Below the pieces are notes generated by a model that ran no database searches, was not told the DNA's origin, and saw nothing but the letters and a program-made list of their open reading frames with translations. A stretch of 64,000 nt of DNA from Phycisphaerales bacterium (GTDB lineage: Bacteria; Planctomycetota; Phycisphaerae; Phycisphaerales; UBA5793): NCBI GenBank assembly GCA_020852515.1, contig JADZAS010000030.1:1-64000 (forward strand). The letters run 5' to 3'. This document shows positions 1 through 40,532 of the stretch, one piece after another (within the stretch, counting starts at the first letter, position 1; each line of letters begins with the position of its first letter). The position numbers and the translations under genes were made by a program.

Positions 1-1
1 C

Positions 2-274
2 TCCGACGCCGCGTTCACGATCATCAACGCCACGCCCAGTGTCAACCAGTACATCGTCTACAGCCTGCGCGGGCTCGGCTCGACGTTTGTGCCGCAACTC
101 AACGTCACGCTCGATCTCGCCCAGCCGGCGCTGCTCACATCCGGCCGGGCCGACGCGCAGGGCATGCTGCAAAAGAGCGTCCACGTCCCGCCCGCCGCTG
201 CCGGCCGCACCGTGTGGTTCCAGGGGGCCGAGGCGAATCGAACGACTGGAGTGATTAGCGAGGTCGTGCGCTGA
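2..274 (+). CDS. C-terminal end of a secreted module-bearing protein (partial)
   Basis: An open frame enters from the left edge and ends in TGA. It encodes about 90 residues that are nearly the same as the last 90 residues of the next gene, starting SDAAFTIINATPS and ending TTGVISEVVR. This is the C-terminal module found on several secreted proteins of the window. Since the module is always terminal here, the missing upstream part is probably another HAF-type or propeller-type secreted protein. The DNA matches 1389-1662 with 17 mismatches by my count, so the two genes are tandem paralogues of recent origin or share a converted 3' end. The body of this protein lies outside the window. Confidence 0.8.
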   Translation, partial: SDAAFTIINATPSVNQYIVYSLRGLGSTFVPQLNVTLDLAQPALLTSGRADAQGMLQKSVHVPPAAAGRTVWFQGAEANRTTGVISEVVR

Positions 275-351: not shown

Positions 352-1662
352 GTGCAACGCCTTTTCACAGCCCAGTGGCTTCTCGGTCTCGCTGCGTGGG
401 GTTCGATCGCCTCGGCCGCGCCGCCATCCTACGAAGTGCAGTTCCTCGGCGCGAGGTACACGGCCACCGCGATCAATGAATCCGGCTCCGTTGTCGGCAA
501 CCTGGACGTAGATGGCACGCGGCTGCGCGCTGCAGTTTCACACAACGGCCTCCCCTTCGAACTTCTGCCCCTGCCACCGGGCATGGAGACCTCGCGCGCC
601 CACGACATCAATGACCAGGGCGTGGTCGTCGGCGCCGTGTGTCCCAACCAGTACGTGATCACTCAGCCGCTCGCCGCGCTTTGGAGACCCGTTGGCAACT
701 CCTACGAAGTGGAGCTGCTCGGAGTGCTTGAGGGTGATTCGTACAGCAGCGCCTATGCCATCAACACGCAGGGCGATGTCGTTGGCGGCTCGGGCTTCTT
801 TGGATGGAGCCTGACTCACCCCGTTCTGTTCACGGACACCGGTCCGATGCGACTGCCGCACATCGGCGCCGCCACCGACGTGAACGACCGCCGCCACGTC
901 GTGTCCGGCCCGCAACTGCTCGATCTGAACACCATGAACGTCCAGACCTTCCCTCTTCCGCCCGGCAACTGGCAGGGCTTCGTCAGTGCGGCCCTCAACA
1001 ACAACGACGATTTTGCAGGCTACGTCGCCGGTTACTCCGGGTGCAGCACGTTCCCCGTTCGCTACCGCCAGAGCGCGGGCTGGGACTTCCTCGGAGGATG
1101 CGCCACGACGACCAGCGCCACCGCCATCAACGATCGCGGCGACACGCTCTTCTACTACTACTTCACGTCCTCGGGCGTTTACCTGCAGGGTGAAGGGTCT
1201 TTCAGCATCGGCGAACTTATCGACCCGTCACAGGGACCATGGCTCGTCGAATGGTTCGGCGCCAATGACATCAACGAATCCCGGCAGATCATCGCCTACG
1301 CGCTCAATCTCTCGACCAACGAGCGCGGCGCCGTGCTGCTCAGCCCCATCGATCTCTACTCCCTCACCGTAACCAACCTCATCGGCGGCTCCGACGCCAC
1401 GTTCACGATCGTCAACGCCACGCCCAGTGTCAACCAGTACATCGTCTACAGCCTGCGCGGGCTCGGCTCGACGTTTGTGCCGCAACTCAACGTCACGCTC
1501 GATCTCGCCCAGCCGACGCTGCTGACCTCCGGCCGGGCCGACGCGCAGGGCGTGCTGCAAAAGAGCGTCCACGTCCCGCCCGCCGCCACCGGCCGCACCG
1601 TGTGGTTCCAGGGGGCCGAAATGAATCGCACGACAGGAGTCATCAGCGACATCGTGCGCTGA
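352..1662 (+). CDS. Secreted HAF-repeat protein with C-terminal module
   Basis: A predicted exported protein of 436 residues. I chose the GTG at 352 because AAGGAG lies six bases upstream and the product then begins directly with a signal peptide (hydrophobic LLGLAAWGSIASA, cleavage near AAPP). A longer frame reaches back to 286 without a ribosome site. The body contains at least six copies of a repeat of the form A-x-D/A-I-N-x-x-G-x-V-V-G (for example AINESGSVVG, DINDQGVVVG, AINTQGDVVG), which matches the HAF repeat family of extracellular proteins, probably beta-propeller blades. The last 95 residues are the shared terminal module. Substrate or partner is not visible. It probably acts at or outside the cell surface. 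Confidence 0.85.
   Translation: MQRLFTAQWLLGLAAWGSIASAAPPSYEVQFLGARYTATAINESGSVVGNLDVDGTRLRAAVSHNGLPFELLPLPPGMETSRAHDINDQGVVVGAVCPNQYVITQPLAALWRPVGNSYEVELLGVLEGDSYSSAYAINTQGDVVGGSGFFGWSLTHPVLFTDTGPMRLPHIGAATDVNDRRHVVSGPQLLDLNTMNVQTFPLPPGNWQGFVSAALNNNDDFAGYVAGYSGCSTFPVRYRQSAGWDFLGGCATTTSATAINDRGDTLFYYYFTSSGVYLQGEGSFSIGELIDPSQGPWLVEWFGANDINESRQIIAYALNLSTNERGAVLLSPIDLYSLTVTNLIGGSDATFTIVNATPSVNQYIVYSLRGLGSTFVPQLNVTLDLAQPTLLTSGRADAQGVLQKSVHVPPAATGRTVWFQGAEMNRTTGVISDIVR
1389..1662 (+). repeat. Direct repeat copy of 1-274 (3' ends of tandem genes)
   Basis: This 274-base stretch aligns without gaps to bases 1-274, including the stop codon, with 17 mismatches by my count (about 94 percent). Mismatches cluster in the last 60 bases. 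It encodes the C-terminal module of both proteins. Confidence 0.9.
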
Positions 1663-1748: not shown

Positions 1749-4433
1749 ATGATCCGAACGACGCGCGCGAGTCGAGTCATGAGGCTCCCATTGATCCGCG
1801 AAACCGCGGCACTTGTCCTGATTGCCTTCGCAACGGGCGCTCTCCGCGCGCAGGACCTCGGCCCATTGCGGTTCATGCCCGGCGATGACGCGGTCGCCCC
1901 GTCGATCGGACCGGTGCGCCAGCTGGCGATCGCCGCGGGCGGGCCCGGGTTTCTTGCCGTCTGGTCGGACAATCGAACCGTCATCAGCGGTCAGACCAAC
2001 GCGCCGGGCGACCCGAACGCGGGCAACATGGAGGACATCTACGGCCAACTTCTCGATGAAACGGGCGCACCGATCGGGCCGCCGGTCATCGTCGCCAACG
2101 TGGGCCGCAACCAGCGCGACCCGCGCCTGGCGTGGAACGGGCAGAACTGGCTCGTGGCCTTCGAAAGCGAAGACCCCGACTGGTACTTCGACGACCAAGT
2201 GCTCGCGGTGCGCGTGTCGCCGACGGGTGAGGCGCTCGATGCCGAGCCGATCTTCCTCTTCGGCATGGAAGACAACCAGGGCGCCTACGACCCCGCGGTC
2301 GCCAGCGACGGCCAGAACTGGCTCGTGGTTTGCGACCAGTGGGTCGGTGGCCAGCGGACGGTGCGCGCCAGGCGCGTGGCGCCGGACGGCACGGTCATCG
2401 ACGCCCAGCCGCGCAACATCCAACAGTCCAGCAGTCTGCAGTATCCGGTCGTCGATTTTGCCGGCGGCGTGTATCTGCTCGCGGCGAACAGTTACAGCCA
2501 GAACCAGTTCTATGTCCGGACATTTGACCCGAACCTCAATCCACTGACGAGTCTGACGAGCGTCGGTCCAGCCACGCCGTACCAGCACGTCGCCCTGGCG
2601 AGCAACGGATCGCGCTTCCTGGCCATCGGCGACCGCGCGCATCGCATCGAACCCAACGGCGCAAACCTCGATCCGAGCGGCATCGCGCTGGGCGGGAGCG
2701 AGACCGCGAGCTGGATCGGCAGCGCCTGGACGGGGACGCACTGGATCGCCTCGATGCGCACCTTCTCCGGCCAGGTGTACTACGACGTCAAAGCGCAGCG
2801 CATTTCCAACAGCGGCGCGCTGCTCGACCCGCAGCCGCGCCTCGTCGAAACCGCACCGCAGGGGCTCGACAACTTCGAAGCGCCCACGGGCGTTGCCGGA
2901 GCGGGAAACGGCGATGCCGCAGTCGCCTTCATCCGGCGCAATCTCCCGATGAATCACTCCGACGTGCGCGCTGCGCGCATCGACGCCGGCGGAAACGCCG
3001 ATCCGGCGCAGGACATCTCCATCGGCCTGCCGCGGCAGTCGTACACCCGCCTGTCAGAAGGTGATGAGTCGATCCTCGCCGTGTACGTCAGCGAGACATC
3101 CGGCTCGACGCGCATCCTGTCGCAGCGGATGTCGCCGGATGGCGACCCGATCGATGCGGAGCCCAACGTCATTGTCGAAATCAATGAAGAGGGCCCCAAT
3201 CCGCTCTTCACACCCAGCGTGGAGTGGAACGGCAGCACCTGGCTGGTCGTCTGGCGGGCGCGCGACGGCGGCGTGGTCGGCGTGCGCGTCTCACCCGACA
3301 ATGTGGTGCTCGACCCCGTGCCGCTGCGGATCACCCCCGGGGCGCCCGGGGGCGAGGGTTACGCCGCCGGCGCCGTCGCGGCGGCAGGCGACACGTTTGT
3401 CGTCGGCATCTTCCACACCATCAACTTCCACGAGCCGGTGCGCTACGCCGAATTCGTTCGTGTCAGCGCGGCAGGCGATGTGCTCGATCCCCTGCCGGTA
3501 TTCGTTGCCGGCGGCTTTTCGAGCGAAATGACCGGCGAAGCATTCGCGGCCGACGGCTTCCTGGCGTGGGCGCAATACGGCTCGCACGATTCGAGCGCAT
3601 CGTATATCCAGGGCGTGATCGTGCACGCCGACGGTTCCACTTCCGGCTCGCTCAGTATCGGAGCCACGGGCATGGAGCCGGACATTGCACCCGCCGGCGA
3701 CCGGGCGCTCGTCGTCTGGCAGGACGACACGACCATCCATCAGGATGACATCAAGGGCCGGTTCATCGCGCCTGGCGGATCGTTCCTCGGCGGCGAATTC
3801 ACCATCAGCGGCGCCGCGCACCCGCAGATGACGCCCGCTGCCGCGTTCGACGGATCGAACTTCGTCGTCGCCTGGACCGACTTCCGTCACCAGGTCGGCC
3901 AGGTGGATCAGTTGCGCGGCGACATCATCATGGCGCGCGTGGACGCAGATGGCACGGTGCTTGATCCCAGCGGCGTGCAGGTGACGGAGGGTCCGTTGCC
4001 GGAAACGCTGCCCGACGTCGCCAGCGCCGCTAGCCCGGCGATCATCGCCTTCAGTATGCTGCACGGGGAAGAGCGGCCCGAGATTCAGCGCTTCGGATAT
4101 CGCATCCTCGGCGGAGCCGGCGGCGGACCCGTGCTCACCATGGGCGGAACCTGCCCGGGCTCGATGCAGATCGGCGTCACCGGCGCGACGCCCGGCGGCA
4201 ACGTCGCCCTGCTGCACGCCACCGGCACGGGATCGGTTCGCATTCCGAACGGTAACCCGTGCGCTGGAACCACTCTGGGGTTGAACTCGACGGCCCAGCT
4301 CTACCGCGTGGTGCGCGCCGATGGGAACGGTTCGCTTTCACTCGATCTGCAGGTCCCGGCGCAGGCCTGCGGCCGCTACGTTCAGGCGCTGGATGCGGCC
4401 AGTTGCGCCACGAGCAATGTGGCTCGGTTGTGA
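1749..4433 (+). CDS. Large secreted propeller-like repeat protein with C-terminal module
   Basis: An 894-residue exported protein. AGGAGG at 1735-1740 is spaced eight bases from the ATG at 1749, so I prefer this over the nearby ATG at 1743 and over the much longer frame from 1602, which would overlap the previous gene. A signal peptide (LVLIAFATGALRAQ) follows. The body repeats blocks such as NGQNWLVAF, DGQNWLVV, NGSTWLVVW and DGSNFVVAWTD, each followed by R-V-x(2-3)-G-x-x-L-D-P, a pattern typical of propeller-like extracellular proteins of planctomycetes and myxobacteria. The final 100 residues are the shared module (TCPGSMQIGVTGATPGG to CATSNVARL). Function is unknown; a surface or matrix role is an inference. 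Confidence 0.85.
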   Translation: MIRTTRASRVMRLPLIRETAALVLIAFATGALRAQDLGPLRFMPGDDAVAPSIGPVRQLAIAAGGPGFLAVWSDNRTVISGQTNAPGDPNAGNMEDIYGQLLDETGAPIGPPVIVANVGRNQRDPRLAWNGQNWLVAFESEDPDWYFDDQVLAVRVSPTGEALDAEPIFLFGMEDNQGAYDPAVASDGQNWLVVCDQWVGGQRTVRARRVAPDGTVIDAQPRNIQQSSSLQYPVVDFAGGVYLLAANSYSQNQFYVRTFDPNLNPLTSLTSVGPATPYQHVALASNGSRFLAIGDRAHRIEPNGANLDPSGIALGGSETASWIGSAWTGTHWIASMRTFSGQVYYDVKAQRISNSGALLDPQPRLVETAPQGLDNFEAPTGVAGAGNGDAAVAFIRRNLPMNHSDVRAARIDAGGNADPAQDISIGLPRQSYTRLSEGDESILAVYVSETSGSTRILSQRMSPDGDPIDAEPNVIVEINEEGPNPLFTPSVEWNGSTWLVVWRARDGGVVGVRVSPDNVVLDPVPLRITPGAPGGEGYAAGAVAAAGDTFVVGIFHTINFHEPVRYAEFVRVSAAGDVLDPLPVFVAGGFSSEMTGEAFAADGFLAWAQYGSHDSSASYIQGVIVHADGSTSGSLSIGATGMEPDIAPAGDRALVVWQDDTTIHQDDIKGRFIAPGGSFLGGEFTISGAAHPQMTPAAAFDGSNFVVAWTDFRHQVGQVDQLRGDIIMARVDADGTVLDPSGVQVTEGPLPETLPDVASAASPAIIAFSMLHGEERPEIQRFGYRILGGAGGGPVLTMGGTCPGSMQIGVTGATPGGNVALLHATGTGSVRIPNGNPCAGTTLGLNSTAQLYRVVRADGNGSLSLDLQVPAQACGRYVQALDAASCATSNVARL

Positions 4434-4542
4434 GCAAGCCAATACAGGGCGAGATACCTGATCCACTGATGTGCTGATGGAAGAAAAATCCTGTCCCGGA
4501 GCGGATACCGCGGTGGGCAGAAGCCCGGAAAGTAAGTGCAAC

Positions 4543-6828
4543 ATGAATCGCACCGCCTGCGCTTCAATCGTGCTTGGTTTCGTGTTCGGTCTCGCCGCGC
4601 CGGTTCAGGCGCAGAATCCCGAGTGGAGAGTCCTCCGTCCCAGCAACAGCGGCATTCCCGGCGAGGAAATGCAGTGCATCCGCCTCGCGCCTGATCACGC
4701 GCTCTGGGTCGGCGCGCGCTGGCCGTTCTGGGGAGAAGGCGGCGTCGGCGTGCTGGACCAGCCGACTGAAGTGTGGACCACGTATTCAAACGTCGACACT
4801 CCCGTCCCCGGCGAATACATCCGCGACATCGAATTCGCCGCGAACGGCGCGGTGTGGATGGCTTCGGAGGGGGGCCTCGTGCGCAAACAGGGTGAGTCGT
4901 GGACCGTCTACAACACGTCCAACTCACCCCTGCTGCACAATGATGTGCGCAGCATCGCCCTCGACAGCCGCGGTCACGTCTGGCTCAACAACAGCAACGT
5001 CCAGAATCAGAACGCCGCACTCTTCGAGTTCGATCCCGTGAACAACACCTGGCGCAAGTTCGCGGTGCCGACCGAACTGCCCTGGCCCGATCCATGGAGA
5101 TCGCTCTCATCCGTCTTCGTGGACAGTCGCGACCGGGTCTGGGTCGGTAACGCCACGCTGACGGGAGCCGCGATGTACGACGGCCAGAGTTGGCGGTTGC
5201 TTGGGTCGAATCTCACCAGCTTCAAGCGATTCGCGGAAGACCTCAACGGCAATATCTGGCTGCTCTCCGGCGGGCTCGGATACTCCTTCTACAAGTATGA
5301 CGGCCAGAACTTCACCGAGTACAGCGCCGCCAACACCCCGTTCGTCAACACCACCATTACCTGCTTTGGCGTCGATGACGACGGGTGGTTCTACGTCGGC
5401 AACTGGGCCGGGCAGGTCATCCGCACCAGCAACTCCGGCGGAAACTGGCAGTCCTTCCTCAGCGGCCTGAACATCATCTTCAATCTCGAACCCGATCCGG
5501 CCAGCACCGGCCTCTGGGTACAGACGATCGGCGCCGTGGGACACTTCCGCAACGACGGCTCATGGGTGCGCGATTACAACTCCTACAACACCGGAATGCC
5601 GGACTTCTGGGTCGATCGATTCAACCTCGATCCGCAGGGCAATCTCTGGCTCGCGACGGGTGAAGCGGGCCTGTCGCGCTTCGACGGGCAGCACTGGCGC
5701 AACTGGGGCGCGCACAACGCCGGCTCAGAGCCGTATCCGTTTGCCGGGAACGAGCCGATGGGCGCGTTCCATATGGATCGCAATGGCGTCGGCTGGATGG
5801 GCGGTAACGGCATCGCCCGATGGATTCCTGAGACCGGTCAGTTCACGGGCTTCTGGAACTGGCAGAACAACCCCGGTATGGGGGTCAGCCAGTGGCAGTT
5901 CTTCGCCCAGGACATGAACGGGACACTCTTCTCGGCTGAGGAATACGGCGCGATCTACCGCTTCAGCGGCAGCATGTGGGTGCGCGAACCCGTGCAGGCC
6001 TACGCCGTGCTGGGCCTTCCGGGCATGCAGGCGGACTCGCGCGGCAACGTCTGGATCGCCGCGTGGTTCGACATTCACAAGTGGAACGGCTCGGTGTGGG
6101 CGCAGATCACGCTGCCGTATCGAGACTACTTCTTCGACCTCGGCGGCATTAACGACATGGCCATCGGCCCCGATGACGTGCTCTGGTTCGCCACTCCGCA
6201 GGGAATCGTGCGCTTCGACGGAGTGAACTTCACGCTCTACCGGTCTGAAACGCTGCCGCTGCCGGCCCGTTCGGTGTCGAGCATCGACATCCGCAGCGAC
6301 GGCGTCATGGGCATCGCCGCGGCCGACGATGCCAACGCATCGGGGATCGCCATCGTGCGCGGCGACATTTCCGACCCGGCGAACTGGGAAGTGCATCGCT
6401 ACGGGCAGTCACCTCAGCCGCACTGGCAGATCACTCAATCCACTTTCGATGCCGATGGCACGTACTGGGTTAGCGCGCTGAGCATGGGGATGTTTGGCCT
6501 GATCGTCGATCCCGTTTCCGCCCCGCAATTGAGTCTGACGGGTTCGTGCCCGGGCCCGATGCAGATCGGCGTCACCGGCGCAACGCCCGGCGGCAACGTC
6601 GCCCTGCTGCACGCCACCGGCACGGGATCGGTCCGCATTCCGAACGGCAACCCGTGCGCTGGAACCACCCTGGGGCTGAACTCGACGGCGCAGCTCTACC
6701 GTGTCATCCGCGCAGACGCCGGCGGCGGATTCCTGATCAATTTGAACGTGCCGCCGGGGGCGTGCGGCAGGTTCGTGCAGGGCCTTGACGCCTCAACCTG
6801 CACGACGACCAACGTCGAACCGCTCTGA
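4543..6828 (+). CDS. Secreted beta-propeller protein of two-component-regulator type with C-terminal module
   Basis: A 761-residue exported protein. The ATG at 4543 puts a clean signal peptide at the N-terminus (SIVLGFVFGLAAPVQAQ); an in-frame ATG at 4471 would add a hydrophilic leader ahead of it and is less likely. The chain carries many blades of the form G-x-x/L-W-x-A/G followed by G-x-x-x-F/Y-D-G-x-x-W/F (for example GAVWMASEGGLVR, GNLWLATGEAGLSRFDG, DVLWFATPQGIVRFDG), as in Reg_prop propellers, but no kinase or DNA-binding domain is attached. The last 95 residues are the shared module. The 3' DNA is almost identical to that of the gene before it. It is probably extracellular; ligand unknown. 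Confidence 0.85.
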   Translation: MNRTACASIVLGFVFGLAAPVQAQNPEWRVLRPSNSGIPGEEMQCIRLAPDHALWVGARWPFWGEGGVGVLDQPTEVWTTYSNVDTPVPGEYIRDIEFAANGAVWMASEGGLVRKQGESWTVYNTSNSPLLHNDVRSIALDSRGHVWLNNSNVQNQNAALFEFDPVNNTWRKFAVPTELPWPDPWRSLSSVFVDSRDRVWVGNATLTGAAMYDGQSWRLLGSNLTSFKRFAEDLNGNIWLLSGGLGYSFYKYDGQNFTEYSAANTPFVNTTITCFGVDDDGWFYVGNWAGQVIRTSNSGGNWQSFLSGLNIIFNLEPDPASTGLWVQTIGAVGHFRNDGSWVRDYNSYNTGMPDFWVDRFNLDPQGNLWLATGEAGLSRFDGQHWRNWGAHNAGSEPYPFAGNEPMGAFHMDRNGVGWMGGNGIARWIPETGQFTGFWNWQNNPGMGVSQWQFFAQDMNGTLFSAEEYGAIYRFSGSMWVREPVQAYAVLGLPGMQADSRGNVWIAAWFDIHKWNGSVWAQITLPYRDYFFDLGGINDMAIGPDDVLWFATPQGIVRFDGVNFTLYRSETLPLPARSVSSIDIRSDGVMGIAAADDANASGIAIVRGDISDPANWEVHRYGQSPQPHWQITQSTFDADGTYWVSALSMGMFGLIVDPVSAPQLSLTGSCPGPMQIGVTGATPGGNVALLHATGTGSVRIPNGNPCAGTTLGLNSTAQLYRVIRADAGGGFLINLNVPPGACGRFVQGLDASTCTTTNVEPL

Positions 6829-6944: not shown

Positions 6945-7054
6945 CTCGCTCAACACGCGCTGCCCAACGTCCGACATGGATCAAGCGCGCCCGGCATCGG
7001 CTGGGCTGGATGGATGGATTCCATGTGGAATGTCTCGATAACGGGAGGTCAGCG

Positions 7055-9829
7055 ATGTCGAATCAACGGACGAATCAACTGAAGGTGGCCGGCAAGACGC
7101 TGGTGACGGCGGCCCTGGTGGCGGTCGTGGGCATCACGATGCCCTCGGGATGCACGACGACGGAAACGGCCAGCCGCAAACCGATCATCAACGTCAACAC
7201 GCCCAACGGCCGGGTGACCGAGACGCGCTCGTACATCAGCAGCGCGTCCAAGCAGTACCAGCTGCCCGAGAACTACGTGAGCGAAGCGAAGATCGGCATG
7301 GCCCGGGTCGAGCGCACGCTCGCCGACGCCGACGCCACGGCGCTTCAGCAGCAAGCGGTGCAGCGCGAGGGCACCGCCCGCCTTCAGGCCCGCCAGCAGG
7401 AAGCCGCCACGCGCGAGCAGATCGCCATGGCCGAGGCGGAGAAGCTGCAACAGCAGTACGAGGCGGAGCAGAACCGCATCTTCGCCGACATGGCCGCCAA
7501 GCAGCGTGAAATCGAGTCCAACGCTGCCCGCGACGAGGCGCACGTCAACGCGCTCATCAAGGAGCGTCAGACGGTGCAGGATGAAGTGATCTCTCGCGCC
7601 AAGGCCGAGTACGCCCAGGCGACGGCGCGCATCGAAAAGCTCCAGAACATGCGCGAGACCACCGACACCGAAGCCAAGGCCGCCATCGCCGACATGCGCG
7701 AGACCGCCAAGGCGACTCGCCAGCGCGCCGAGGCGACCGTCAACGCCATGCGCGTCGAGGCCAAGGCCGTCAGCGATCAGACCGCGGCGCAGGCCGATGA
7801 ACTGCAGATCCGCATCGACACCGTGCTCCAGCAGAGCGACGCCGAGTCCAAGCGTCTGGCCAGCAAGGCCGCCTCGATGCTCCAGGAAGCCACGGCTCAC
7901 TCGGCCGAGATCAACGCCCGCGCCGACGCCCTCACCGCGCAGGCTTCGCAGGAAGAGTACGACGTCAAGGTGAGCGCCGCCGAGTCGGAATGGGCGCAGG
8001 CGCAGTTCAATCACGAACGCTCGCTCGTCGAGGCCAACTCGAACTTCGCCCGCGCCGAAGCGCAGATCTCTCGGCTCCGGGGCGACGCGCAGGTCATCAC
8101 CGAGCGCGCCAACGCCGACTGCCAGCGCGGCATGGAAGAACTCGAGTCGTGGGCCAAAGACGCCCGCGCCGAGATCGAGAAGATCCGCATCCGCGCCAAT
8201 CGCGCCGAGTCCGTCGCTCGCAGCGAGTTCGTCAAGGCTGAAGCCGAAGCACGCGCCAACGCCATGCGCGAGACCGCGGCTCACCAGCAGGAACTCGCCG
8301 AAGAGCAGATGAAGGAAATCATCGCCGCGGCCAACGAAGAGGCGACCCGCCTGCGGGCCCAGATCATCGATGAGCTGGCGAACCAGCAGAAGCAGAACAG
8401 CGTCGAGGTGCCCGGCAAGACCGATCCCGCCGCGCCCCAGGCCGACGATCTGCACAAGGTGCCCGAGTCGCCGACCGTCACTCCCGTGACGCCGCGCGTC
8501 GAGCCCGAGTACGTCGCCGCCTTCCGCGCTTCGCTCGCCCAAGTGATGAAGGACCGCGCCACGGCTGATGCGCACACGCTGGCGCTCGAGGCCTCGTTCG
8601 CGCAGACCAAGACCAACCTCGACGCGGCCAAGAGCCAGCAGCTGGCCATCGCCGCCGAGCAGAACGCCATCGCCTCGGCTCTCGAGTCGCAGGCCAAGGC
8701 CAAGCTCGTCGAGACGATCGCCACGGCCAACGCCGAACTCGCGTTCGGCAAGACCGAGCACGATCGTTCGATCGTCGAAGCCGGCGCCTTCCGCAAGGAA
8801 GCGCTCGCCCTGGCGACCGATCTTCGCGCCCAGGCCAAGGCGACCTATGACGTGGCCGTCGCCCAGAGCAACCAGCTCAAGGCCGAGTCCGACATGACCG
8901 CTCGCAACGGCCAGACCGAGGCCACCGCGCTGCAGGCCCAGCTCGACGCGCTCAAGCGCCGCGGCAACGCCGAGTACAGCCGGCTCATGGCCGAGGCCGA
9001 CAGCGTCGGTCAGAGCCAGGCCGCGCTCGCGTCACAGTTCGACGCCCAGATTGACGCCGCCCAGCGCACGCTGACGGCTGAACTGGCCAAGCTCGATCGC
9101 TCGATCGAATCGCAGACGATCGTCGCTCAGGCGAACTACGACGAAGCGCTCGTCCGGGCCGACGTCGTGGGCAAGCGCGCGGAGGTGGAGATCGCCCGCA
9201 TTCGCGCCAAGAACGCGCTCGAGCAGTCTTTGGCCGAGGCTGAACTCGATCGCAACCGCAACCTCGTCTACGCCAGCCGCGTCAAGGGTGAGGCCGACGT
9301 CGAGCGTCTCGTGGCCACGGCCCGGGCGCAGAGCGAGCAGGCCAGCGCCCTGAACGAGGCTGAGTACGCTCACCTCCGCGCCGAGCGCGACATCGTGATG
9401 GCCAACGTCGAGGCCGGCCGCAAGACCGCCCTGGCGCAGGAAGAGGCCGTGCGAGCCCAGTTCGGCGCCCGCCTCGTGCAGGTCGATGCCGAACGCGTCA
9501 AGGATGCGGCCGACCTCTACCGCACCGAGACCTTCCGCCAGAAGAACCTCGAGCAGACGCTCGCGCAGGCGGAAGCGACCCGGGCCGAATCGCAGCAGCG
9601 CCTCGCGGCCCTGCGTGCCCAGCAGCAGGAACTGCAGATGGCTGCAATGAAGAACTGGGATCAGCGTCTGGCGGAACTTCGCAACTCGACGAAGAACTTC
9701 CAGATGAACTTCCAGGTGCCCGATCCCTCCACCACGCCCGTCCAGGCCAGTCGCGAGACGGTCAAGACCGGTGACAAGGAGCAGAACGTCGTCCAGATCG
9801 CCGACGTCCCCACGGACGGCAACGACTGA
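7055..9829 (+). CDS. Giant alanine/glutamate-rich coiled-coil protein, possible lipoprotein
   Basis: A 924-residue protein. GGGAGGT sits seven bases before the ATG at 7055; an upstream in-frame ATG at 7010 has no such site. The N-terminus has a hydrophobic segment (LVTAALVAVVGITM) followed by PSGC, a weak lipobox, and this is the only cysteine. From about residue 65 to the C-terminus the sequence is charged, Ala/Glu/Arg/Gln-rich and almost free of Pro and Gly, so it should be one very long helix or coiled coil. The break is a proline-rich hinge near residues 450-490 (EVPGKTDPAAPQ, TVTPVTP). It ends in a short polar tail. It stands alone with its own terminator. I infer a structural role in the periplasm or envelope; I do not recognise a named family. 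Confidence 0.75.
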   Translation: MSNQRTNQLKVAGKTLVTAALVAVVGITMPSGCTTTETASRKPIINVNTPNGRVTETRSYISSASKQYQLPENYVSEAKIGMARVERTLADADATALQQQAVQREGTARLQARQQEAATREQIAMAEAEKLQQQYEAEQNRIFADMAAKQREIESNAARDEAHVNALIKERQTVQDEVISRAKAEYAQATARIEKLQNMRETTDTEAKAAIADMRETAKATRQRAEATVNAMRVEAKAVSDQTAAQADELQIRIDTVLQQSDAESKRLASKAASMLQEATAHSAEINARADALTAQASQEEYDVKVSAAESEWAQAQFNHERSLVEANSNFARAEAQISRLRGDAQVITERANADCQRGMEELESWAKDARAEIEKIRIRANRAESVARSEFVKAEAEARANAMRETAAHQQELAEEQMKEIIAAANEEATRLRAQIIDELANQQKQNSVEVPGKTDPAAPQADDLHKVPESPTVTPVTPRVEPEYVAAFRASLAQVMKDRATADAHTLALEASFAQTKTNLDAAKSQQLAIAAEQNAIASALESQAKAKLVETIATANAELAFGKTEHDRSIVEAGAFRKEALALATDLRAQAKATYDVAVAQSNQLKAESDMTARNGQTEATALQAQLDALKRRGNAEYSRLMAEADSVGQSQAALASQFDAQIDAAQRTLTAELAKLDRSIESQTIVAQANYDEALVRADVVGKRAEVEIARIRAKNALEQSLAEAELDRNRNLVYASRVKGEADVERLVATARAQSEQASALNEAEYAHLRAERDIVMANVEAGRKTALAQEEAVRAQFGARLVQVDAERVKDAADLYRTETFRQKNLEQTLAQAEATRAESQQRLAALRAQQQELQMAAMKNWDQRLAELRNSTKNFQMNFQVPDPSTTPVQASRETVKTGDKEQNVVQIADVPTDGND

Positions 9830-38600: not shown

Positions 38601-40337
38601 CTACGGCGTCGGCACGGGCCGGCTCGTCGCACACGTCGAAAGATCAATCGCCTGAATGAGGATGCGCCCGCCGCAGGCGACGTTGGGCGCGTTGGCGCTC
38701 AGCAGCGCGACGCCCGAGCCGTCGGCGGTTACCGTTCGCGCCAGCGTCACCGGGCTGCCCAGGCACAGACGCGTGCCGGCGCAGGGCATGTTGTTGGGAA
38801 TGGTGAACCCGCCCGCCGAGCGCGAGTGCACAAACGCCACGCGGCCCACCGGCGTGCAGTCAAAGGCGCGGATGGCCAGCGTGCCCGGGCAGGCCCCGGC
38901 GACGGTGAGATCGATCGGCACGGTGCCGATGGTGCCCGTGTTCGTCCGCAGCCGCTGCGCGTGGATGTCGCTCTGCCCCGTGCCGCCGTGCTCCCAGACG
39001 AGCATCGCGCTGTTGGCGATCGAGATGGCATTGGCCGTGAGGCGCGATCGCCCGGTTCCGCCCGGCGTAAGCGACACGATCCCGGGCGCCCAGCGCAGGA
39101 TGCCCGCATCCGTCACCCCGGCCGCGCGCACGGTGTCATCGTCAAAGCCGGCGCTCTCGATGAAACACACCGTCGCCTTGCCGTCGGCAAAGATGGTGTT
39201 GATCGAGCGGTAATCCATTCCGGCGCTGACCGGCCGCAAGACAATGCCGCTGTCGCCCCACAGCCGGCTGCCCGAGCCGTCGATGCGCTGGCCGTACACG
39301 CCGCGATTGGCCTGCCCGTTGCTCTGCTCCATCCAGAAGACGTAGATGCTGTCCGTGGCGGCGTCGTACGCCGCGGAGGGCGAAACGCGATCCTGCAGGC
39401 TGTTGATCGAGACGGGTACGCCGTTGTGCGCGAAGAGTTCATTGCCATCGGCGTCCACGTGCTGCACGTAACACTGCAGCGAGCCGCTCGTGTTGTACCA
39501 TGCGAACACGCCGCCGCCCGAGCCGTCTTCGACGAACGGCGGGAAGTTGCCGAACTGCAGCGATCCGCCGTCGAACACCTTCACATGCCCGCCCGTCCAC
39601 CGGGGCGCGCCCCTCGTGCTGATGCGCTGGGCATAGAGATGCTTGGGCGCGTTGAAACTCGTGGACTGCACCCAAGAGACGATCACGTCGCCGTTCACGC
39701 TGGGATGGAGGTCGGCAAGCGAGAGCGAAGCGCCGTTCGGATCGCTGAGGATCGTCTCGCTGCTCCAGAGAACATTGCCGTCCGCGTCGAGGCGCTGAAG
39801 GTGAACATTCTTCTCCTGCGTCCAGGCGACGACGCACTGGCCGTCGCTGGTGCCGGCAATCTTCGGCGACGCCACGAAGGCGCTGCCATTGCTGAACTGC
39901 ACGCCGTTGGCGCCCCATGGCATCGAGCCGTCCTTGCCCACGCGCTGGGCGGTGATCTTCGTGCCGCCGAAGCGGTCATCGCGAAACGCGAGCAGCGCAA
40001 AGCCGCTGCGATCGACATCCAGGCCGTAGTCCTGCGTCGAACTGAAACTGCGATCGGCGATGAGCAGGCCGTTGTGGGGGAAGGTCTCGTTGCCCTGCGG
40101 GTCGATGAGTTGCAGCGCGATGTCGTAGCCGTGGCCGATGTTGCGCTGCCAGACGAGAAAGTCGCGGCCGTCCACGTCGCCGTCCGCCGCCGCGGACTTG
40201 GGCTGGATCTCATCGCCGGTCAGGTCGGCGATGATGAGGTCAGTCGGCTGCGTGCAATTCTGTGCGATGGCCCCGGCGCTCAGCAGGCCAAGGGCGACTC
40301 CAGCCGAGCAGGCAATCAAACGACGCGATGTACACAT
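38601..40337 (-). CDS. Secreted propeller-like repeat protein with a diverged C-terminal module
   Basis: A 578-residue exported protein. The ATG at 40337 follows GGGGAGAAGAAG and starts a signal peptide (CSAGVALGLLSAGAIAQN); the longer frame to 40454 is not supported. The body has repeats similar in style to the gene at 1749, such as DGRDFLVWQ, RSGFALLAFRDDR, GQCVVAWTQ and NSAMLVWEHG, each followed by a block with Q-R-x-x-x-x-G. The last 100 residues (GACPGTLAIRAFDCTP, NNMPCAGTRLCLG, ACGGRILIQAIDLSTCATS) align with the terminal module at 4.4 kb and 6.8 kb, but without DNA-level identity. It is therefore a separate, older copy. Function unknown. Confidence 0.85.
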   Translation of the reverse strand: MCTSRRLIACSAGVALGLLSAGAIAQNCTQPTDLIIADLTGDEIQPKSAAADGDVDGRDFLVWQRNIGHGYDIALQLIDPQGNETFPHNGLLIADRSFSSTQDYGLDVDRSGFALLAFRDDRFGGTKITAQRVGKDGSMPWGANGVQFSNGSAFVASPKIAGTSDGQCVVAWTQEKNVHLQRLDADGNVLWSSETILSDPNGASLSLADLHPSVNGDVIVSWVQSTSFNAPKHLYAQRISTRGAPRWTGGHVKVFDGGSLQFGNFPPFVEDGSGGGVFAWYNTSGSLQCYVQHVDADGNELFAHNGVPVSINSLQDRVSPSAAYDAATDSIYVFWMEQSNGQANRGVYGQRIDGSGSRLWGDSGIVLRPVSAGMDYRSINTIFADGKATVCFIESAGFDDDTVRAAGVTDAGILRWAPGIVSLTPGGTGRSRLTANAISIANSAMLVWEHGGTGQSDIHAQRLRTNTGTIGTVPIDLTVAGACPGTLAIRAFDCTPVGRVAFVHSRSAGGFTIPNNMPCAGTRLCLGSPVTLARTVTADGSGVALLSANAPNVACGGRILIQAIDLSTCATSRPVPTP

Positions 40338-40532
40338 CTTCTTCTCCCCGCCCCATGCTCTGTTGGTCTCAGAAAGCCGTCGCTGCGGCGCGGCAGGTAA
40401 TTTGGGCCCCGTCGCCGGAACGCGTAGCGTACCAGATTTTGCATCTGAGTGCAACAGAAAACCACAATGGACTCCAGCAAACCCCGCGGGGAAAGTGATC
40501 GGGCAATGGAACGTGAGCCAGTTCCAACCCGC

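Follow-up and report, generated by a model that had tools for sequence, protein, structure and literature searches.

An Ig-like C-terminal module on at least 209 proteins of a Phycisphaerales genome evolves in concert and may be a sorting or attachment domain

The window, by which we mean the whole 64,000-nucleotide stretch of Phycisphaerales DNA analysed here, opens with the end of a cut gene followed by three genes for exported proteins, and all four end in a version of one module, which comes in two forms, A and B (Table 1). With the stop codon excluded, the form B module of the cut gene spans positions 2-271. Beside the module genes, positions 7010-9829 encode a long Ala-, Glu- and Arg-rich protein, probably a coiled coil, and the DNA directly downstream of P0002 is also conserved in Phycisphaerales UBA5793 (L191).

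Table 1. Module-bearing genes, their modules and the homogenised tracts in the window.
Feature	Position	Strand	Evidence or remark
Form B module, stop included (cut gene)	2..274	+	94% identity to 1389-1662; exact overlap with the last 94 bp of contig C13
P0003, HAF-repeat exported protein	352..1662	+	TIGR02913 E 4.7e-6, DUF3466 E 1.4e-4
Form B module of P0003	1363..1659	+	AlphaFold2 pLDDT 97.6, folded as 1351-1659
P0001, exported protein; body without Pfam match	1749..4433	+	
Form A module of P0001	4131..4430	+	Genome search with module
Homogenised tract in P0001	4152..4308	+	149/157 identical to matching part of P0002
P0002, exported protein, beta-propeller (Reg_prop) body	4543..6828	+	PF07494 E 1.2e-16
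Form A module of P0002	6529..6825	+	AlphaFold2 pLDDT 96.1, folded as 6517-6825
Homogenised tract in P0002	6547..6703	+	Counterpart of 4152..4308
Further exported protein with module (open frame)	38601..40454	-	
Form A module at C-terminus of the 38601..40454 protein	38619..38909	-	E 3.0e-19; fifth copy in window

An earlier note on this DNA had described P0001 and P0002 as unrelated bodies with a common end of 95 residues. BLAST finds no relation between the bodies, and the shared module measures about 100 residues. The note's count of about 7 differences in 147 positions between 4162-4308 and 6557-6703 is exact, and six of the seven fall at third codon positions. Per 30-nt block from 4152 to 4301, P0001 and P0002 are identical at 27-29 positions, compared with 8-20 outside, and the best ungapped 147-nt match between the bodies reaches 69/147. 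The suggestion that the HAF protein (P0003) and the cut gene carry a distant version of the same pattern also held: profiles of forms A and B are homologous by hhalign (probability 98.4%, E 8e-15), and the HAF tail and the cut-gene tail are 94% identical over 274 nt. The "truncated gene" at the left edge does have the tail, but its truncation is an assembly break, the first 94 bases of the window contig being the last 94 of contig C13, on which the open frame of the cut gene runs to 891 aa.

The module occurs in at least 209 proteins of this 4.7-Mb genome. One module per form, used as query at E up to 1, gave at least 149 (form A) and 99 (form B) matches, and together the two queries marked at least 213 places (for the form A query, 150 of 193 candidates were scored). 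Two of these places run off contig ends, one (C13:608259) is a non-homologue, two are fragments and one is the second module of a protein that has two; another module protein, C35:46883, lies outside the 213 places. Of 211 closed frames, 210 matched a module profile, and these correspond to the 209 proteins. The two fragments, which are included in the 209, are module remnants with no full in-frame module (C25:172796-172900 and C11:658-741), perhaps decayed genes or frameshifts.

In all 209 carrier proteins the module is the last element, and 172 of 210 entries end 2-4 residues past the last model position. It is present once in each protein except for one, which has two tandem copies. Since the whole-genome search was unbiased towards C-termini, this count is a fair test of position. 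Elsewhere, 121 of 122 closed module frames (78 loci, in planctomycete-labelled records except for one set) were likewise C-terminal; in the single clear exception, L199:2751-4136, the module is followed by 113 more residues that form a Cys-rich stretch. The proposal that carriers have signal peptides is mostly borne out by a heuristic that was positive in 181 of 207 module frames and in 44 of 119 control frames drawn from the same pieces of DNA; it considers starts within the first 150 residues of each stop-to-stop frame and overlooks some visible signal peptides, including that of P0001. The module thus has the profile of a sorting tail, being strictly C-terminal on signal-peptide proteins of varied body.

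When the signal peptide and module were removed, 187 bodies of at least 40 aa fell into 59 BLAST families, with 40 singletons. Pfam matches in 67 members included FG-GAP, SBBP, HAF/DUF3466, RCC1, beta helix and CBM96 among the non-enzyme bodies, and peptidases S8, M14 and M28, GDSL lipase and GSDH among the enzymes; propeller bodies are also among the carriers. The module is not always joined to a cargo, as 16 proteins consist of signal peptide and module alone, mostly encoded in runs of two or three adjacent genes. Around six such arrays, the neighbours (10 frames scanned) were ordinary genes or had no match, with no secretion or sortase genes among them. The module-bearing family shows a strong expansion of HAF-repeat matches (96 in the window's genome, G000, 73 in G297 and 108 in G301), and nine order mates have 0-9.

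The module is predicted to be a folded domain with no membrane span, in agreement with the earlier note. AlphaFold2 models both forms as an all-beta, Ig/Fn3-like beta sandwich, at a mean pLDDT of 96.1 for form A (73 sequences) and 97.6 for form B (24 sequences). The two models agree in strand order, and in each a short helical turn precedes the penultimate strand. Form A has four conserved cysteines that form B does not have. The closest solved structures by VIA-align, among the rows listed, were Ig/Fn3, nanobody and neocarzinostatin-type folds, with Z up to 8.8 (form A) and 9.7 (form B) and Ig/Fn3-like matches at Z 7-10, and Foldseek against the PDB gave no match at E 0.001 or better. The one match in a sequence search of solved structures was at chance level (E 0.47). 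The modelled Ig/Fn3-like arrangement is common and indicates no function.

No existing domain family was found to cover the module, in that no Pfam or NCBIfam model recurs over it in 67 scanned members (best 25 of 34 and best 25 of 30 families listed). We judged CarboxypepD_reg on the P0002 module (E 0.056) and weak matches of Neil1 and MefB on the cut-gene tail to be chance. A PHROGs search returned nothing, plasmid records had no match to form A or form B, and no description of the module was found among the open-licence PubMed Central papers listed.

Form A was found in 19 of 294 genomes of the phylum, the window's own included, and the broader form B profile in 38 of 294; among the order and class mates listed, neither form was found. 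Five further genomes of the window's GTDB family were searched, and all have at least 150 module matches; two of a distant family (f61) have 79 and 59, and two order mates searched have none. These counts describe a patchy distribution with two strong expansions. The WYBR01 records (L199, L200 and L208), titled Vicinamibacteraceae, hold many modules; the other carriers here are planctomycetes only, and we regard these records as probably misnamed.

On homologous bodies, the module fills the slot of other C-terminal tails. The genome has 15 PEP-CTERM genes, none of them a module gene, and two exosortase matches (PF09721), whose substrates would be the PEP-CTERM proteins; the module therefore adds to this route and is not the sole one. 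For four of the 15 PEP-CTERM proteins, the same genome encodes a module-bearing protein with a homologous body: L288 matches C26:54691 (81% over 168 aa), L289 matches C2:67760 (66%), and L281 and L293 match C19:7745 (46% and 41%). Between L288 and C26:54691, protein and DNA homology ends exactly where the PEP-CTERM tail of one and the module of the other begin. The L288-type body was found at 37 places in 9 of 151 genomes of the order, and the 30 loci that were read carry 8 module tails (all within the window's genus), 9 PEP-CTERM tails, 10 dockerin-like tails and 3 other or cut ends. Between G000 and G297, orthologues have the same type of tail, module with module and PEP with PEP.

The dockerin-like tails, a double EF-hand, are a third alternative found in order mates; examples are L301, L308, L312 (G418) and L392 (G002), most with a Cys at or near the end. 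HAF-repeat frames vary in the same manner: among the matches listed in the window's genome, 19 of 21 have the module and 2 are tail-less, and four frames read from order mates have one PEP-CTERM tail and three EF-hand tails. The six genomes of the module-bearing family have 15, 22, 15, 15, 13 and 6 PEP-CTERM matches; for 19 order mates the median is 39 and the range 2 to at least 150 (Mann-Whitney p 0.002, uncorrected for kinship, the six genomes being one clade).

Syntenic loci of other genomes reveal concerted evolution of the modules. The locus is syntenic in UBA5793, which has both P0001, in part, and P0002, and in KLAP200 (L192), which has HAF in part and most of P0001. Identity between P0001 and its UBA5793 orthologue is 79% both for the body and for the module outside the tract, and falls to 68% within the tract; between the two paralogues, tract identity is 95% in the window and 69% in UBA5793. 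The tract of P0001 is 87% identical to that of its KLAP200 orthologue, below its identity to its own neighbour. For form B, the two modules of the window's genome agree at 253 of 270 positions, and the HAF module agrees with its KLAP200 orthologue at 227 of 270, despite HAF bodies that are 91% identical. Of 390 pairs with homologous bodies, which are not mutually independent, 100 had a four-fold-site identity that was greater in the module by over 0.2, and in 8 the module fell short by the same margin. The syntenic and four-fold-site comparisons together indicate that modules are homogenised within genomes and diverge between them; gene conversion or tail exchange may be the cause. In several assemblies, contigs terminate within a module (window 1-94 with C13, L192 and L226), and such repeats probably break assemblies of this clade.

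The earlier note had likened the module to PEP-CTERM and T9SS tails as a sorting, anchoring or maturation signal. The first comparison gained from the tail swaps on homologous bodies. Like the module, PEP-CTERM/exosortase (EpsH) tails (TIGR02595, PF09721) are confined to the C-terminus of signal-peptide proteins with a wide range of unrelated bodies, they occupy the same slot, and an exosortase is present in the genome. A PEP-CTERM tail is a short motif with a membrane span and an Arg cluster that is cut by exosortase, whereas the module is predicted to fold as an all-beta domain of about 100 residues and has no Pro-Glu-Pro-like motif, membrane span or basic cluster. The T9SS comparison fared less well: its markers were undetected, and membership of that system is unsupported. 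The T9SS CTD (Por_Secre_tail, PF18962) is, like the module as modelled, a single-copy C-terminal beta-sandwich on diverse exported proteins; its profile had no matches in the window's genome at E 0.1, it was not among the VIA-align rows listed, and the translocon marker SprA was found in 0 of 294 planctomycete genomes in a search in which control genomes were equally silent.

In order mates, type I dockerin-like tails alternate with the module on one body family, but they consist of two EF-hand-like loops ending in Cys (we named them by eye), whereas the module is predicted to be all-beta and Ig-like, and the duplicated EF-hand calcium-loop motif is absent from its consensus. The NCBIfam "choice-of-anchor" families resemble the module system in that one body type takes alternative C-terminal tails, and a choice_anch_R body is present in the module set; those models describe the body, while the module itself is without a model.

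We think it rather likely that the module serves as a folded C-terminal domain for sorting or attachment. Such a role is consistent with its position at the very end, its presence in single copy behind an export signal on unrelated bodies, the tail swaps and its uniformity within genomes. Against it stand the exosortase and PEP-CTERM proteins of the same genome, the one internal copy, the silence of the SprA search (in controls as well) and the lack of secretion or sortase genes beside the stand-alone arrays, and the PEP-CTERM deficit comes from a single clade. The signal-peptide-plus-module proteins also speak against it, as a pure cargo signal does not predict them. These same proteins, together with the dockerin-like alternatives, which are themselves binding tails and alternate with the module on one body, keep a non-covalent binding module as the main rival: the Ig-like domain would bind a polysaccharide, S-layer or matrix component with no dedicated export machine. 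The predicted beta-sandwich fold would suit this reading, which we nevertheless consider unlikely, given that binding modules are generally found at internal and N-terminal positions and in tandem as well, whereas this one is C-terminal in 209 of 209 proteins of the genome, with a single two-copy protein, and that Pfam scans matched no CBM family to the module among the families listed.

It is less probable still that the module merely finishes and protects the C-terminus of exported proteins, as a folding or protease-resistance cap. A compact predicted fold would be apt for a cap, the four conserved cysteines of form A would suit disulfides outside the cytoplasm, and the module is found on any body, but homologous bodies exist without it or with a membrane or EF-hand tail, and a cap does not lead one to expect uniformity within genomes. 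Least probable, and very much so, is a recombining domain cassette with no shared cellular role, whose spread and homogenisation would come from recombination among repeats. Module DNA that is far more alike than the bodies, and contigs that break inside modules, would follow from such a cassette, but copies with as little as about 22-30% identity keep the frame, the C-terminal position and the structural core, and tail type is kept between species.

As a sorting or attachment domain, the module could work as follows. The signal peptide would export the proteins, and the Ig-like module at the very C-terminus would then be recognised by one common partner, candidates being a surface receptor or an outer-membrane machine for translocation or attachment. 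This putative partner would bring widely differing bodies to one extracellular location or keep them there, and concerted evolution, perhaps by gene conversion or tail exchange, could reflect that all tails face the same partner. More tentatively, and with somewhat more doubt than belief, we propose that a clade of Planctomycetota has an undescribed pathway for export or surface attachment, in which an Ig-like tail on at least 209 exported proteins partly replaces PEP-CTERM and evolves in concert within each genome to match a co-evolving putative receptor or translocon.

For a sorting tail to evolve in concert across unrelated genes would be unusual in itself, and would explain why assemblies break inside module genes. 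The module would also be a handle for pulling out the machine that reads it, with the tail swaps on matching bodies as ready-made controls. It looks like an undescribed address label and, if this is right, it would be the label of the largest class of secreted proteins in this planctomycete family, a class of about one gene in twenty (a rough estimate from the 4.7-Mb genome) that Pfam and NCBIfam leave unnamed.
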